From positions 1 to 32,320 of IMG/VR virus record IMGVR_UViG_3300008219_000054: a stretch of 32,320 nucleotides of DNA; one strand, given 5' to 3'. Below the pieces are notes generated by a model. That model searched no databases. It worked only from the letters and a program-made list of their open reading frames with translations, and was not told where the DNA came from. The stretch comes from a virus. A program made the translations under genes and the position numbers. Within the stretch, counting starts at the first letter, position 1. Each line of letters opens with the position of its first letter. Shown here in pieces: positions 2,651-32,320 of this stretch.

Positions 2651-3175
2651 TCAGGCTGGTTTGCTTAGGTTGAGGATCTGAAAGATTTGTATGAAAAAAG
2701 GGGTTGAACCCTTTACCAGGGTGTCGATGACTTCGGCTGGATTAAGCAGTTTAATCACCTCCATCTCCACCTCTAACTTGGACGGGTCAGGATCGGGAAA
2801 CGGATCCAAAGCTATTTGTAAAACCTTGTAAATCCGGTCCCGCAGATCTTGTTTACCCAATAGGCGCAAGATGAAACGAGGAATAGCCGTTTCAGCCATC
2901 AAATCCTCGTCACCTTGCACCGATTCTAATAGAGCTTGTACCTCGGTCGAGATTAGCTCCAGTTTATAAAATGAGGGATAATGCAAACTGAGTTCGATCT
3001 TCTCCACCTCTCCGTTTCCGTCACGGCGATGGACGGTGAAAACCTCGGGAATATCAGCCATAACCTTACGCAGTTCTTCGGCTTGATCGCCGACACCGTC
3101 TTCTTTAAGGTTCTTGACCTGATTCTCAAGTTCTTCCACCTTGACTGTTAGGAAATCGAGTCGATCTTCACTCAT
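2651..3175 (-). CDS. Tail assembly chaperone, upstream frame (G-type)
   Basis: 174 residues, acidic, mostly helical, lying between the tail tube gene and the tape measure. Length, position and the overlapping -1 frame fit the G protein of the G/GT tail assembly chaperone pair. The N-terminus (residues 1-40) looks like a short coiled coil (VKVEELENQVKNLKED). The middle (about 55-130) resembles the compact helical chaperone core. The slip site C CCT TTT falls at codons 159-160, shortly before the stop at 2651-2653. Family assignment rests on context and architecture, because the primary sequence of these proteins is poorly conserved. Confidence 0.8.
   Translation of the reverse strand: MSEDRLDFLTVKVEELENQVKNLKEDGVGDQAEELRKVMADIPEVFTVHRRDGNGEVEKIELSLHYPSFYKLELISTEVQALLESVQGDEDLMAETAIPRFILRLLGKQDLRDRIYKVLQIALDPFPDPDPSKLEVEMEVIKLLNPAEVIDTLVKGSTPFFIQIFQILNLSKPA
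2696..2702 (-). other. -1 ribosomal frameshift slippery heptamer (C CCT TTT)
   Basis: On the minus strand the zero-frame codons read ACC CCT TTT TTC, giving the X XXY YYZ heptamer C CCT TTT. A -1 slip re-pairs both tRNAs on CCC and TTT and continues TTT CAT ACA AAT, which is exactly the frame of the downstream chaperone ORF. The zero frame would end at 2651. The fusion would hold 160 residues of the first frame plus 88 of the second. Confidence 0.8.
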
Positions 3176-6133: not shown

Positions 6134-6471
6134 TATATTCGCTCCTGTAAAGAGGTTTCCATGTGGCTAGTCCAGTCCTCAATTCCCAGCACATCAAAGG
6201 TAGTTGAACCCAAGACCACCACCACGCCACCTGACGGATAGGCCGACAAAACATTAGCGTACCTTTGGCTGTACATAGTGTGAGTCGATCTGTAGGCAGA
6301 ACCTGTCGCGTTGTCCGACACAGAAGCCACCGTCGGTTGCAAATCCACCTGAGCATCGGCCTGTAAAGCTGTCGGACTGCCCGTCACATAATTGAAGCTG
6401 GCATCCTGAGTAGCCGTTTCCTGTTGAATGGTGACGGTCGAAATATCAGTGGTATTAATGAACATATTCAT
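6133..6471 (-). CDS. Head-tail connector / head closure protein
   Basis: 112 residues, Thr/Val/Ala-rich, beta-type: MNMFINTTDISTVTIQQETA, a DAQVDLQP block, then YSQRYANVL and VVVVLGSTTFDVLGIEDW near the C-terminus. The size and the strand pattern resemble head closure (stopper) proteins that seal the portal and connectors before tail joining. The order portal side, adaptor (6797-7390), this gene, gp10-like and terminator supports that. The ATG at 6471 follows a TAA in another frame; AAGG stands roughly 15 bases upstream. No hallmark residue confirms the family. Confidence 0.5.
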   Translation of the reverse strand: MNMFINTTDISTVTIQQETATQDASFNYVTGSPTALQADAQVDLQPTVASVSDNATGSAYRSTHTMYSQRYANVLSAYPSGGVVVVLGSTTFDVLGIEDWTSHMETSLQERI

Positions 6472-7393: not shown

Positions 7394-10375
7394 TTAGCCC
7401 TCCACTTGAGTCAAAAAGGTTTTATCTCTGGTCAAAGTAAACACCTGTTTCTCTAAATCCTTGATTTGGAACTGTAAATGCTTCTCCAAATCGTCCTGAT
7501 CCAAGAAGCGCATATCTTGACCGTTATCCGTTATCTGAACATCTATTTTGGCTCCGAACCCTACTTGTAACAGTTTCAAAGCCACCTGATAAATAGGAAA
7601 TATCAGTTTGTAATAACGGCCCTCTGGATCAGCCAAATTAAGCTCCTCGTCATGGAAAATGCGTAACACTTCCCGCAACCGCCGTTCTGAAGTCTGGCTC
7701 AAAGGTTGGTCCGGGGTTTCTTGCCGTTCCCAGCCCACCATATTGATATATTCTCGCGCTAACAAAACCCAACCCAACAACCGATCAGGATGCACAGCTC
7801 GATCCAGTTTTAACAGTCCAATATTCCGTTCTTTACACTTAATCTGGCGCACATCTTCCGTCACATAACCATAATGAATGATGTCGGTTGAGGGCAACTC
7901 AAATGACGGTTCTATCGGTTCGTTTAGACTCCGATGGGCATGTTCATGGATACAGCCATAAAACTTGAACCCAGCCCCATTACGGTACAACCTGACGGGT
8001 GTGTCGTGCCGCTGGTCAGCGTCAACCATCAAATGAACCTGACGCAAGACATATCCGTCATAAAGTCGGGTCTGTAGATACTTGCCCAACAGATCACCGT
8101 TGCGTAATTCTTCGTCAGTGTCAATCCACAGAATCCAATCGCCGTTGGCCGGATCAACCGACTCGTTCCGCATCCACGAAAAGTTGCCCGGATTCGGCGC
8201 CCAATCCGGAGCGGCTGGCCATTTTTCTGGTAACTCTATGATCTTAGCCCCATACTGTTTAGCGATCTCCACCGTCTTATCGGTCGATTGATTGTGGGCC
8301 AAAATAATCTCGTCAGCTACATCTTTGACTGAACCCAAACAACGCCCTATATCCTGTTCGTTGTTCTGGGCGATCATACAAACACTGATCTTCTGGTATG
8401 GTCGAGTCAACTTGGCTTTCTTATCGAAATCTATCTCACCGTATTGACCGCCTTTTTGGTGCCGGAAAACGTAATGGCCCTTATTCAAACCTCGGCAACC
8501 GGTAGAGTTATTGGTGCAGATATATCGGGCTTCAAAACCGTCTTTTTGGCTAAAGACTTCTTCCACCGTGTTGTATTCCCAATGAATCCGATGCGTCCGT
8601 TGATTCAGTTCTCTGTCATTGGTAGCCATCTCCACGAATGGGCCGTTAGGTACTGTCCAGACCAGCCAGCCATCATCGGATAACAGGTCTTCCAAAGCCA
8701 AAACCAGTTCCATCGGTTCAACATAGTGTTCCAATAATTCGCCACAAAAGATCAGGTCATATTTCTGGCCTTGAAGCGAGAACAGGACATCGCCCTCCAC
8801 CTTAATCTCCTGCAAGGTGGATGCTTCCATCAAATCAGCTTGGTACAAATGCGGTTCACGTTGTCCCCATTGCTGATCAGATATAAACTGGTTCCCCTTC
8901 TCCACCACACCTGGGCTGAAATCTATACCCAAAACTTGGGCCGAGGGGAACATCCGTTGCAAGGCACTGGCAAAGATGCCACCTCCACAACCATAATCCA
9001 GAATGTTAGCTGGCTCCATCTGGCTGTTCTTGGGGTCGATCAATTGCAAGACAGTTTCCAGTCGACCATGAAACCCAGCCTCAACTACCTTGCCTTCCAA
9101 GGAAGGTTCCATCATGCCGGCTTCATACTGTTCTTCCGAATGCGTTTGTTCCAGACAGGAATCCAAGCGGTCTTGCTGTTCCTGGCTGACGCCTTCTTCC
9201 TCCCGAATATGGTAAGCGGTCACGAAATCGTCGTGATGAAGAAGGTTATCAAATATTTGCGGTAGATGATCTTGGAACCGGTCCTCAAAAAACTGGTCGA
9301 AATTCTGTTCCCATTCCTCAGCGATAGTGCTGTACTGATAATTGTCTTCCACCCATTGACGGCCGCTATCCTGAGCCTCTTTATATCGACCTGGATCGTC
9401 CAGCAAATCGAAGGTTTGGGCTATAAATTCGCGGCGGTATCCATCACTATAAGCATCACCCTCAATCAAAGCACCAGCAAACGGCCACAAAGTTTCTATC
9501 AACCCTCCTCGACTACTGGCTATCATTGGGGTTCGACAGGCTTGGGCTTCCAAAGCAGCGATACAAGAGGTCTCATCGAAAGTCGGCACACCCGGATACA
9601 ACATCAAAGCTGATCTGGAGATATGTTCATATAATTGGGTTTTGTTCAAATTACCCAAATATTCAACCCCTTCGGTATGAGCTACCATGCGATCAGCTTG
9701 CTCACAAATCCGCTTCACGTCCGGGTTATTTTCATACATTGAATAGTAGCGACAAACCTTCAATTCCAGGTCAGGCCGTAACTCCCGCATCTGAGGAAAG
9801 ATCTGCAATAATGGGAACAACCCTCGTTCTGGCCGGCTAATATAGATCATCTGGTTGGGATCTTTTTCAGCCACCAAACTGTCATCGACCGTATCCAAAT
9901 CAATGCCGTTCTTAGTCACAAACGCTAGCTTCTCGATACCACTAGGTAAGATAGATTCGTAATTTTTCCGTTGCCAATCACTTACATAAAGGATCTGATC
10001 TGTTTGCCATAAACTGCCGGCATATTCAGCCTTGATACTAGCTTCCAACACGTCCTCAACCCACAAACCACGATACTTGGCCCGGACATTATTGGCCATC
10101 ACTGGATAGTAGCGTTGGGAGATGAATATATCCCATTCGATACTGTGACACATATCAGGGAAATACTGGCTATCAGCCCATTTGACCCCGTTATATCGTC
10201 CTTGATGATCTTCGTTTTGAAATTGAGTGAAGACCGTGACCTGATGTCCTCGTCGGGCTAAAGCATTGGCCATATAAACCAAAGCTGTTTCACTGCCGCC
10301 TAAAGACTTCTCCAATTTAATAGTCTCAGCCGAAAAGGGGACTGATTGGCAATAGAAGGCGATATTGTATTTCAT
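7394..10375 (-). CDS. Three-domain fusion: GT4 glycosyltransferase, SAM methyltransferase, GT2 glycosyltransferase
   Basis: 993 residues. Domain 1 (about 1-385) is a GT-B glycosyltransferase: the Gly-rich LGGSETALVYMANALARRG at the N-terminus and the acceptor/nucleotide motif E268-x7-E276 (DETSCIAALEAQA) are characteristic of GT4. Domain 2 (about 410-640) is a class I methyltransferase with motif I DYGCGGG at 460-466 and a downstream GELLEHY. Domain 3 (about 660-900) is a GT-A enzyme: ISVCMIAQNNE at 663-673, NQSTDKTVEIA at 695-705 and the metal-binding DTD at 752-754. The last 40 residues form a coiled coil. It sits between the capsid and connector genes, so glycosylation of a virion protein is the most likely job. 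DNA glycosylation is an alternative. All three active-site motifs look intact. Confidence 0.88.
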   Translation of the reverse strand: MKYNIAFYCQSVPFSAETIKLEKSLGGSETALVYMANALARRGHQVTVFTQFQNEDHQGRYNGVKWADSQYFPDMCHSIEWDIFISQRYYPVMANNVRAKYRGLWVEDVLEASIKAEYAGSLWQTDQILYVSDWQRKNYESILPSGIEKLAFVTKNGIDLDTVDDSLVAEKDPNQMIYISRPERGLFPLLQIFPQMRELRPDLELKVCRYYSMYENNPDVKRICEQADRMVAHTEGVEYLGNLNKTQLYEHISRSALMLYPGVPTFDETSCIAALEAQACRTPMIASSRGGLIETLWPFAGALIEGDAYSDGYRREFIAQTFDLLDDPGRYKEAQDSGRQWVEDNYQYSTIAEEWEQNFDQFFEDRFQDHLPQIFDNLLHHDDFVTAYHIREEEGVSQEQQDRLDSCLEQTHSEEQYEAGMMEPSLEGKVVEAGFHGRLETVLQLIDPKNSQMEPANILDYGCGGGIFASALQRMFPSAQVLGIDFSPGVVEKGNQFISDQQWGQREPHLYQADLMEASTLQEIKVEGDVLFSLQGQKYDLIFCGELLEHYVEPMELVLALEDLLSDDGWLVWTVPNGPFVEMATNDRELNQRTHRIHWEYNTVEEVFSQKDGFEARYICTNNSTGCRGLNKGHYVFRHQKGGQYGEIDFDKKAKLTRPYQKISVCMIAQNNEQDIGRCLGSVKDVADEIILAHNQSTDKTVEIAKQYGAKIIELPEKWPAAPDWAPNPGNFSWMRNESVDPANGDWILWIDTDEELRNGDLLGKYLQTRLYDGYVLRQVHLMVDADQRHDTPVRLYRNGAGFKFYGCIHEHAHRSLNEPIEPSFELPSTDIIHYGYVTEDVRQIKCKERNIGLLKLDRAVHPDRLLGWVLLAREYINMVGWERQETPDQPLSQTSERRLREVLRIFHDEELNLADPEGRYYKLIFPIYQVALKLLQVGFGAKIDVQITDNGQDMRFLDQDDLEKHLQFQIKDLEKQVFTLTRDKTFLTQVEG

Positions 10376-29987: not shown

Positions 29988-30287
29988 TTATTTGGTTCCT
30001 TTCCGCGGCCGTTCCTGCGGAATTTCTAAAGTGCGAACATCGACATTCTCGAAACTGACGAAATCGTCAACCCCGATCCTTTCCCATCCTCGCCCATACT
30101 TCTCTTTTCCTAGGACATTAATAGCCCAAGCTACATGATTTAGCTCCTCGACTTTAAAAGCGATGGTGCCATCCATCCGCTTGCCCCACTGATTGGGGTG
30201 CATCTTCATCCTATCGCCCAAAGGCTTTCGCCAGCCCCACTCGATCAGGCCTCTCAGCCGAAGTAAATCAACTTTTAATATCGTCAT
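29988..30287 (-). CDS. Small HTH (Cro/C1-like) regulator of the early switch (99 aa)
   Basis: 99 residues. The stretch LGDRMKMHPNQWGKRMDGTI (about 23-42) plus FKVEELNHVAWAINVLG (44-60) follows the Cro/C1-type HTH pattern (turn with N-x-W-x-x-R-x-x-G, then E-E-L). The C-terminal 35 residues are charged. GGAGG lies four bases before the ATG at 30287. It is the first gene leftward from the divergent promoter pair and would repress or activate it through the palindromic sites at 30330-30345 and 30397-30418. Function by context. Confidence 0.6.
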   Translation of the reverse strand: MTILKVDLLRLRGLIEWGWRKPLGDRMKMHPNQWGKRMDGTIAFKVEELNHVAWAINVLGKEKYGRGWERIGVDDFVSFENVDVRTLEIPQERPRKGTK

Positions 30288-30314
30288 CCAACCTCCAATT
30301 CAGGCTTCGACGAC

Positions 30315-30430
30315 ATTATAACAGGTTGAGCTTGACATTACAAGCATAAACGTGGGATGTGAGGTTTTTCTAAAAAAACTTCAACTTATTACAGTTTGAG
30401 CTTGACATTACAAGCTCAGGGCGTTATAAT
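30315..30430. promoter_or_regulatory. Divergent early promoters with a shared palindromic operator
   Basis: Rightward: -35 TTGACA (30402-30407), 17-bp spacer, -10 TATAAT (30425-30430), a perfect consensus promoter for the plus-strand early genes. Leftward: -35 TTGTAA (30343-30338), 17-bp spacer, -10 TATAAT (30320-30315). Both -35 boxes lie inside copies of GCTTGACATTACAAGC (30330-30345 and 30400-30415). The right copy extends to a 22-bp palindrome with 8-bp arms (30397-30418). The copies stand 70 bp apart and share 20 bp (30326-30345, 30396-30415). A repressor bound to both would silence both promoters. Confidence 0.8.
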
Positions 30431-30465
30431 ACAGCCATACAACAAAGAACAGAGGAGACAGAGAG

Positions 30466-30681
30466 ATGAACAACTTAACCACAACCACGAAACCCAGGTC
30501 AACCGAGGCTAGGATCGAGGCGGCGATAGGTGAGATAGTAGAAATCAGGCTGACTAATTTGTTAGGGATCAACCGAGACGAGCTGTTTGAACGCAATGAT
30601 CGGGGTGAGCTCGTATATGGTGACGAATTTAATGACACTTTCCACGACGTGAAAGCATGTCTTGACGATCTATTTAGTTAA
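30466..30681 (+). CDS. Early small protein 1 (71 aa)
   Basis: 71 residues with an acidic, helical C-terminal half (VYGDEFNDTFHDVKACLDDL) and a Thr-rich N-terminus. It starts at the ATG 30466 after GAGGAGACAGAGAG, a ribosome-binding box repeated before the next genes. It is the first gene downstream of the strong rightward promoter. The middle (EAAIGEIVEIRLTNLLGIN) may be a helix-turn-helix, but this is not convincing. No family recognised; early phage genes of this kind often bind host proteins. Confidence 0.7.
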   Translation: MNNLTTTTKPRSTEARIEAAIGEIVEIRLTNLLGINRDELFERNDRGELVYGDEFNDTFHDVKACLDDLFS

Positions 30682-30694
30682 AGAGGAGACAGAG

Positions 30695-30904
30695 ATGAAT
30701 CATTCCACAAGTACAACAATTAGAGGTACGAAGGAAAAGCAAGAGGTTAATACCATGCGGGATCATCTCGCATTGGCACGATATGGGAAATTGTCACAAC
30801 AGGAATTAGTTCAGTTGATATATGAGGAAATATATTGCAAGATTCCCGATGATGAAATCCGATCCATTTACCCGATAGAAATTAAACCGAACAGCATCCT
30901 TTAA
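30695..30904 (+). CDS. Early small protein 2 (69 aa)
   Basis: 69 residues from the ATG at 30695, chosen because AAAGAGGAGACAGAG precedes it; a frame starting at 30662 would lack a site. The N-terminus is polar; the middle (LALARYGKLSQQELVQLIYE) is helical and the end is acidic to neutral. No Cys pair or membrane segment is present. Same leader box as its neighbours, so it is co-regulated. Not recognised. Confidence 0.65.
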   Translation: MNHSTSTTIRGTKEKQEVNTMRDHLALARYGKLSQQELVQLIYEEIYCKIPDDEIRSIYPIEIKPNSIL

Positions 30905-30916
30905 GGAGACAGAGAA

Positions 30917-31096
30917 ATGAAGTATTTGTGCATTCAGAAATATTACGATAACGGGAAGGTGTCAGCATGGGTTGAGTCGTGCGCCGACGAGACGGAACCT
31001 TATTTCAATGAGAACAAAAAATCCGACGAATATGGTGACATCTTCGATACGAAACAAGAAGCTGAAGAATATGCAGAGCAAAGCCGTTTGGCCTAG
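30917..31096 (+). CDS. Early small protein 3 (59 aa)
   Basis: 59 residues from the ATG at 30917, preceded by AAGGAGACAGAGAA. The sequence is acidic and aromatic (YLCIQKYYDNGKVSAWVESC, then KKSDEYGDIFDTKQEAEEYA). It resembles small acidic phage proteins that mimic DNA or bind host factors, but nothing specific is recognised. It ends 11 bases before the next gene. Confidence 0.65.
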   Translation: MKYLCIQKYYDNGKVSAWVESCADETEPYFNENKKSDEYGDIFDTKQEAEEYAEQSRLA

Positions 31097-31107
31097 AGGA
31101 CAGAATA

Positions 31108-31395
31108 ATGGAACTACGAAAGAAGAAGAAGACCAAAGTCTACAACACGGCTAACGGTGTAGCCGTCAGGTTTTACGACACCGAGATTTTCAACTACAAT
31201 CTGGACAAGCCTACCATCACCCTACGAACAGACGGCTATTTCACGGTCACCACCAAACGGAGAATCAACCAAGCCTTTCAAGAATTGAATTTGCCTTTTA
31301 CCCTCTGGCAAAAAGATTATGATTGGTTCGTAGGAAAAACCGGAACTGATTTGATCTGGGAATTTGAAGGTAACGAGTTGAATATCCCCGCCTGA
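31108..31395 (+). CDS. Early small protein 4 (95 aa)
   Basis: 95 residues. A basic start (MELRKKKKTK) leads to a beta-rich body (VAVRFYDTEIFNYNL, TITLRTDGYFTVTTKRRINQ) and an aromatic C-terminal half (PFTLWQKDYDWFVG, LIWEFEGNEL). AGAGGA precedes the ATG by seven bases. Its stop codon (31393-31395) lies inside the CUGAUGA core of the hammerhead ribozyme, so translation termination and ribozyme folding touch the same bases. No family recognised, although T-R-R-x-N-x-A sequences also occur in phage proteins of unknown function. Confidence 0.65.
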   Translation: MELRKKKKTKVYNTANGVAVRFYDTEIFNYNLDKPTITLRTDGYFTVTTKRRINQAFQELNLPFTLWQKDYDWFVGKTGTDLIWEFEGNELNIPA

Positions 31396-31441
31396 TGAGA
31401 GCCAGTTGGTAACTGGCCGAAACCCCGAAAGGGGTCGTGGG
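31387..31441 (+). ncRNA. Type I hammerhead ribozyme
   Basis: All core bases are present in order: CUGAUGA (31392-31398), stem II G31399-C31418 with a bulged A and 7 bp (31401-31407 with 31411-31417), GAAA (31419-31422), stem III CCCC-GAAA-GGGG (31423-31434), then U31435 and C31436. The cleavage triplet is GUC (31434-31436), so the cut falls between 31436 and 31437. Stem I is open-ended: 31387-31391 with 31437-31441, five pairs with one U-G. The downstream product would start with GUGG-GAAA-CCAC (31437-31448), a GNRA hairpin that competes with stem I. It would separate the small-gene mRNA from the DUF932-like mRNA. Confidence 0.9.
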
Positions 31442-31475
31442 AAACCACAATAAGATTATGAACCAAGGAGGAGGA

Positions 31476-32320
31476 ATGATGAAAGAAATTAATGTCTATT
31501 CAGGTAGCCACTACCAAGTTGAATTGGAAGGATTATTGGCTGCACCGTTACCCAAATTCGATCCCGAAGGACGGTTCCGACCATTACCGCATTCGGTGAT
31601 GGATCAGCAGACCCGCTCAGTGGTAGAGGATTTGGGCCACACGATAACAGAAGAACAGTTCCACATGACAGATGATGGCATGAGGGCGGTCGGTATTTAC
31701 CAATTCATCAGCGATTTGGATCCCGACCATTCCAACACGGTGTCGTTCTATAATGCTAATGACAAGTCATCGTCAACCAAGATGGCTGCGGGTAAGATTC
31801 AACACATCTGCCTGAACGCAGTCATCACGGGGGAGGTAGTTTATAAAACCTGCCACACCAAATTTATTGAGGACCGACTTCCAGTTCTCTTGAGTGAGGC
31901 CGTCACCAAAATCGGCGGCTACATCAAACACCAAGAGATTCAGCATATCGCCTATAAACGCATCACCTTAGATCAGGAGGAAACCAAGAAAACCCACCAA
32001 ATGAAGGTGGACCATCTTATCATGGAGGCTACCCGGAATAAGGTTATTGCCGGTTCTGCCATTGGCGCAGTTGAACACCAATATTGGATGCCTCGACATG
32101 AGGAATTCACTGAAAACGGTTATTCACTACACCGCTTCCTGCAAGCCTTTACCCAAGTTTTCCAAGATCGGCGATACAGCTACCGCCGGCTAACCAAAGC
32201 CAGCTTGGAGTTGCAACGGATTTTCAACCGGCAATTTAAAACTGAGCTTGAGCAAGTTGGTTCGGACATCGAAGGGACGCTTCAAGAAATGGAGGGTTGG
32301 AGGTTAAATGAAGGGCAATG
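31476..32320 (+). CDS. DUF932-like protein (partial, N-terminal 281 codons)
   Basis: The frame is open from the ATG at 31476 (a second ATG follows directly) to the window edge. AAGGAGGAGGA stands just before it. The block SFYNANDKSSSTKMAAGKIQ with HICLNAVITGEVVYKTCHTK (about 90-128) matches the core of DUF932 (phage/plasmid-type) proteins: N-x-x-D-K-S, G-x-x-x-x-C-x-N and H-T. The remainder is helical and charged. DUF932 proteins occur in phages and plasmids without a settled biochemical role. It is the first gene whose mRNA would be freed by the ribozyme, with a 39-base leader. Confidence 0.75.
   Translation, partial: MMKEINVYSGSHYQVELEGLLAAPLPKFDPEGRFRPLPHSVMDQQTRSVVEDLGHTITEEQFHMTDDGMRAVGIYQFISDLDPDHSNTVSFYNANDKSSSTKMAAGKIQHICLNAVITGEVVYKTCHTKFIEDRLPVLLSEAVTKIGGYIKHQEIQHIAYKRITLDQEETKKTHQMKVDHLIMEATRNKVIAGSAIGAVEHQYWMPRHEEFTENGYSLHRFLQAFTQVFQDRRYSYRRLTKASLELQRIFNRQFKTELEQVGSDIEGTLQEMEGWRLNEGQ

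Follow-up and report, generated by a model that had tools for sequence, protein, structure and literature searches.

Does the junction between two early genes of an uncultivated phage carry a self-cleaving RNA, and if so, what is a ribozyme doing there? The DNA in question, which we call the window, is the whole 32,320-nucleotide stretch analyzed here (IMG/VR record IMGVR_UViG_3300008219_000054, positions 1 to 32,320), in which a preliminary description had reported a complete type I hammerhead with a full core, a GUC triplet and three stems. Judging from sequence, we think with good confidence that the site is a genuine and probably active hammerhead of a widespread phage subfamily, and that it splits the mRNA of an early operon at a gene junction.

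A base-by-base check agrees with the reported architecture and places a complete type I hammerhead on the plus strand at 31387–31441, with a consensus core. Stem I is open, as the type I order requires, and joins CCCGC (31387–31391) to GUGGG (31437–31441) in five base pairs, one of them G-U. It leads into the C3–A9 core, CUGAUGA (31392–31398), which matches the consensus, as does the G12–A14 core, GAA (31419–31421). Between the two lies stem II (31399–31418), which has 1+5 base pairs: G31399–C31418, a bulged A31400, then GCCAG (31401–31405) with CUGGC (31413–31417), capped by a 7-nt loop, UUGGUAA (31406–31412). Stem III, ACCCC-GAAA-GGGGU (31422–31435), has five pairs, and A31422–U31435 corresponds to A15.1–U16.1 of the hammerhead consensus. 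The cleavage triplet, GUC (31434–31436), is of the NUH type and ends in C17 (31436); the consensus puts the predicted scissile phosphate at 31436/31437, the position proposed before. Of the two GNRA loops once claimed for the ribozyme, such loops do occur in stem III and in a hairpin at the 3′ side, and loop II is not GNRA. With these features the RNA is a known kind of type I hammerhead and is very probably able to cut.

A descriptor scan of the window returned this site as its single type I hammerhead. When 300 Markov-shuffled windows were scanned on the plus strand only, a loose descriptor gave 10 type I matches, and in no match did stems I and III both reach 5 bp. Rfam reported no hammerhead at the window site at its curated (gathering) thresholds, and at relaxed thresholds the best model there was RAGATH-1-hammerhead, with 14.5 bits. 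This miss is probably a limit of the models, because 13 other loci of the same subfamily were missed too: at these, Rfam reported a pistol ribozyme and a type II hammerhead but no type I site. Pattern scans of viral contigs for type I hammerheads and for their long-loop form yielded at least 120 stretches and 115 stretches, respectively. The subfamily is characterized by a 5-bp stem I, a stem II of 5–6 bp, and a loop II of 7 nt that pairs with the 3′ tail. A covariance-model search, proposed in the preliminary description, was run with a model (R1) built from 64 long-loop-form environmental phage sites, the window excluded, and gave the window site 75.8 bits (E about 6e-21), one of the higher scores in the family.

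Pairing statistics were computed on an alignment of 44 sequences, the window included. Standard pairs fill 97.3% of the pair cells, compared with 79.7% after shuffling and at most 42% when the partners are slid. Changes on both sides occur in 15 of 20 pairs, with compensatory changes in all three stems. The search pattern left stems I and II and the tail free, and it fixed the core and the GGY of loop II, which are therefore no evidence. Helix I is 98.6% paired, with compensatory changes seen, and the stem III helix is 100% paired, figures that partly reflect selection, since the sequences had been pre-filtered for stems I and III of at least 4 bp.

The alignment also bears on the tail that follows stem I. 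Loop II, UUGGUAA, is predicted to pair with the tail sequence AAACCAC through the strands UGGU (31407–31410) and ACCA (31444–31447), forming U31407–A31447, G31408–C31446, G31409–C31445 and U31410–A31444. The last of these pairs is Watson-Crick in 72 of 75 distinct relatives (54 U-A and 18 C-G), a count reached by 0 of 20,000 permutations, which ignore the relatedness of the sequences. Among the 44 aligned sequences the pseudoknot columns alone are 91.5% paired, and their covariation is only modestly above that of shuffles, since the G-C pairs are nearly constant: 5 to 7 of 500 shuffles equal the observed percentage and score. Pseudomonas phage PaP3 differs in the whole pairing, which its sequence gives as UGAUU with AAUCA. 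Published work describes loop-tail pseudoknots of hammerheads as a requirement for rapid cutting (Perreault et al., 2011, PMC3088659). The most plausible role of the downstream AAACCAC is that of one strand of this predicted pseudoknot, a role that the preliminary description missed and that is better supported than the hairpin it assigned to the same bases.

A plus-strand operon of small genes carries the ribozyme on its coding strand and is preceded at 30402–30430 by a promoter-like site (TTGACA-17-TATAAT) of the sigma70 type, recognized by consensus match only (12/12). A divergent promoter-like site (10/12) stands opposite it at 30343–30315 on the minus strand, and the two lie where the small genes, which run rightward, meet the structural and primase genes, which run leftward. 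The gene immediately upstream, gene A (31108–31395, plus strand), encodes 95 amino acids and is assigned to Pfam PF23790 (Kyano_Gp96) and phrog_554. Its reading frame ends with the UGA at 31393–31395, and the earlier statement that this stop lies inside CUGAUGA is thus correct. Downstream, a Shine-Dalgarno-like purine run (the AAGGAGGAGGA region, 31466–31475) precedes a DUF932-like gene (31479–32318, plus strand) that reaches the window end; its ATG at 31479, placed by homology with the related contigs L001 and L003, lies 42 nt beyond the predicted cut. The DUF932 assignment, also made earlier, holds, though weakly for the window protein itself (E 0.013; the best of three homologues reaches 8.6e-07). 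Elsewhere in the window (7394–10375, minus strand), a gene downstream of the major head protein gene encodes 993 amino acids that include glycosyltransferase and methyltransferase domains. A DNA search of phage records with a 5.3-kb query found no match. We name no host, as the terminase comparison gave distant relatives only (at most 37%); nor do prophages provide host evidence, since a narrow hammerhead pattern had 0 matches in the bacterial genomes searched.

The early operon transcript is most likely split by the hammerhead; from the sequence we infer cleavage, the role in mRNA processing, the function of the hairpin and any link to translation. Transcription would start from the promoter near 30402–30430, and once the transcript passes about 31450, stems I–III and the loop II–tail pseudoknot could fold and the RNA would cut itself at 31436/31437. 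The upstream product would be a small-ORF mRNA ending in the stable stems II and III with a 2′,3′-cyclic phosphate. The downstream product would be the DUF932-like mRNA, starting with a 5′-OH 42 nt ahead of its ATG. The freed tail may then form the hairpin GUGG-GAAA-CCAC, which would help product release and structure the new 5′ end.

The closest relatives test how far this reading carries. In L003 the gene A homologue is 79% identical with the same stop position, and no further gene A homologue was found in the viral contigs. A hammerhead occupies the same junction there (6294–6362), with the core CUGAACGA, in which one base is inserted after A6; a natural insertion at this point has been reported as a low-activity variant. 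The same insertion recurs in otherwise complete hammerheads of two other contigs (L238, 6241–6173, and L239, 13457–13382, both minus strand). A small gene, gene B, separates the ribozyme of L003 from the DUF932-like gene. In L001 the downstream protein is 92% identical to that of the window, a relative of gene B again precedes its gene, and no ribozyme is found at that junction; gene A is absent from the record. The L001 hammerhead lies before another gene (9017–9083) and has a GUU triplet and the same tail as the window. Two points speak against activity or processing: the A6 insertion at the sole orthologous site, in L003, and the absence of a ribozyme before the same gene in L001. The preliminary description held that a core lost from relatives that keep the genes would speak against it, and the outcome is mixed: L003 keeps the orthologous site with an insertion in its core, and L001 retains the downstream gene with its ribozyme elsewhere.

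Since the window and L003 share a site and L001 uses a different one, the hammerhead cassette changes junction among related phages. The cassette could be mainly a selfish or drifting intergenic module, tolerated at junctions because cutting there is harmless. The same subtype with a similar tail does sit at different junctions in window/L003 and L001, the neighboring genes vary, and the L003 core insertion and L001 GUU triplet fit such drift. Against it, many contigs show strong conservation of the core and stems, and copies at successive junctions suggest use; we regard a drifting cassette as unlikely. R1 matches number one each in the window, L003 and L001, and several viral contigs hold four or more (4–6 in some). 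In contig L069, six fall between 1946 and 4985 at successive gene junctions, and the same contig carries a pistol ribozyme at 1279–1355. Another contig, L140, combines type II and type I hammerheads (1084–1147 and 3095–3161). In L001, a 10-codon ORF (MEYKIWGHYK, 8986–9018) ends at the hammerhead and may be what is left of a gene truncated by the arrival of the cassette.

The position of the hammerhead had been called unusual, a reading that the viral contigs rule out. An upstream stop, defined as the end of an ORF of at least 45 codons that falls within the ribozyme or in the 150 nt before the core, adjoins 174 of 184 phage hammerheads. In 141 of the 184 a start preceded by a Shine-Dalgarno-like sequence comes next, no farther than 110 nt away and at a median of 27 nt past the cut. 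A role in processing phage polycistronic transcripts was proposed in 2011 (PMC3088659). The hammerhead is therefore real but not unusual, as this device, similarly placed, occurs in many phage sequences from the environment.

The stop codon in the core nonetheless raises the question of translational coupling, in which a ribosome at the UGA (31393–31395) would cover stem I, the core and stem II and block cleavage, so that cutting would report the translation state of the upstream gene. A stop in the core is found in the window, in the L003 homologue and in 37 of the 174 relatives with an upstream stop, including the annotated stop of XPP57769.1. Relative to C3, stops peak at −9 (27 cases), −8 (25), −3 (15), +1 (37) and +11 (12), and the window stop, the UGA of the core itself, is position +1. 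The UGA of CUGANGA is invariant, however, so any ORF entering in the +1 frame must end in the core. Most relatives stop elsewhere, chiefly 3–9 nt before the core, and the stop position is thus not conserved as coupling predicts. Coupling is plausible, but on balance we consider it improbable. In the mostly open-access literature searched on phage hammerheads we found no treatment of the stop-codon-in-core arrangement, which does not prove it new.

A related idea concerns the alternative hairpin GUGG-GAAA-CCAC (31437–31448, −4.5 kcal/mol), whose formation excludes both stem I and the pseudoknot. The preliminary description saw it as a protective hairpin using the bases of stem I. It can indeed form and shares those bases, but it is secondary to the pseudoknot, and its full length is present in about one third of the relatives: a tail hairpin of at least 4 bp occurs in 29 of 80, against 19.9 expected from shuffles, and 71% of the hairpin cells pair. 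The window, L001 and L126 share the tail GUGGGAAACCACAA; that of L003 is GUGGGCAACCACAA. Moreover, the hairpin is unable to explain the covariation of 31410 with 31444, because base 31444 sits in its loop; we have accordingly demoted it as the main role of the tail, the best-covarying base being unpaired in it and the hairpin incomplete in most relatives. In the folding model, which lacks pseudoknots, stem I and the hairpin are nearly isoenergetic (−24.6 vs −24.1 kcal/mol) and longer sequence contexts favor the hairpin, which makes the efficiency of ribozyme folding uncertain. Once the RNA is cut the hairpin is able to form; before that, it might interfere with folding. Positions 31437–31448 could even be a built-in switch, with stem I and the pseudoknot before cleavage and the hairpin after it or while a terminating ribosome sits on the core. 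If this were true, the cut would depend on translation of the upstream gene and would in turn decide what becomes of the downstream mRNA; we find the switch quite doubtful.

The competing hairpin, together with the core insertion of the L003 homologue, could also point to a decayed or inactive hammerhead-like sequence. This is very unlikely for the window copy, which has the full consensus core, a predicted pseudoknot and the R1 score given above. That the GC-rich hairpins of stem III and the tail, stable and at a gene boundary, are an intrinsic terminator or a plain mRNA stabilizer rather than a ribozyme is scarcely credible: they have no U tract and would leave the complete core unexplained, and a terminator is ruled out, as a search of 30250–31600 revealed no site resembling one.

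The single site, with cleavage at the gene junction as its most probable role, is one more phage hammerhead, and the wider pattern is more useful: a subfamily with a covarying pseudoknot that falls below Rfam thresholds and usually occupies the gap from a stop codon to the following ribosome-binding site, in some cases at several junctions in a row. Arrays of phage hammerheads make the mRNA-processing idea directly testable. In L126, which also has a hammerhead, two similar structured intergenic motifs (1654–1572 and 1330–1252, minus strand; CCUGGYAG ... UCGUARCCAGCACCAG) run from the upstream stop to the next ribosome-binding site. They have no Rfam match up to E 1 and fold z-scores of −3.2 and −5.1, and are possibly another small ribozyme.

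Several known systems resemble the window. The Rfam families RAGATH-1-hammerhead (RF03152) and Hammerhead_HH9 (RF02275) have the same core and topology, and the window site scores 14.5 and 12.8 bits against their curated cut-offs of 56.3 and 52. The HHphage of haloviruses HF1/HF2 likewise precedes, by a short distance, an early gene on a polycistronic transcript, and an mRNA 5′ end there has been mapped to within 3 nt of the hammerhead cut (PMC3088659); it differs in having insertions near C3 of the core and in belonging to an archaeal virus. The Christensenellales phage IMGVR 15666929 (PV036454) is 79% identical to the window over 62 nt (E 7e-6) and has the annotated stop of XPP57769.1 in the core, a hairpin-capable tail and a GGC/GCC pseudoknot, but its genome holds three hammerhead copies. 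The 72-nt search that found this phage also found PaP3, weakly by BLAST (E 7). Its hammerhead (NC_004466, 44024–44112, minus strand) matches R1 at 44.3 bits, adjoins the stop of orf67 and also has a loop II–tail pseudoknot, differing in a longer stem III and in the pseudoknot sequence; a PaP3 hammerhead is listed among the active ones, which may not be this copy (PMC3088659). Streptomyces phage Janus was rejected as a carrier, its R1 matches being too weak to count. A further parallel is the set of phage and prophage type I hammerheads of Perreault et al. (2011, PMC3088659), which share with the window the core, three stems and open stem I, an intergenic place among phage genes, a loop-tail pseudoknot and proposed transcript splitting. 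That study assayed 18 consensus hammerheads in vitro, of which 14 cut and four showed no cleavage, and a tandem set cuts in E. coli (PMC3088659). The window site differs from this set in being an uncultivated phage copy, single in its record rather than part of an array, and in a tail that, once cut free, can pair into a full 4-bp hairpin as well.
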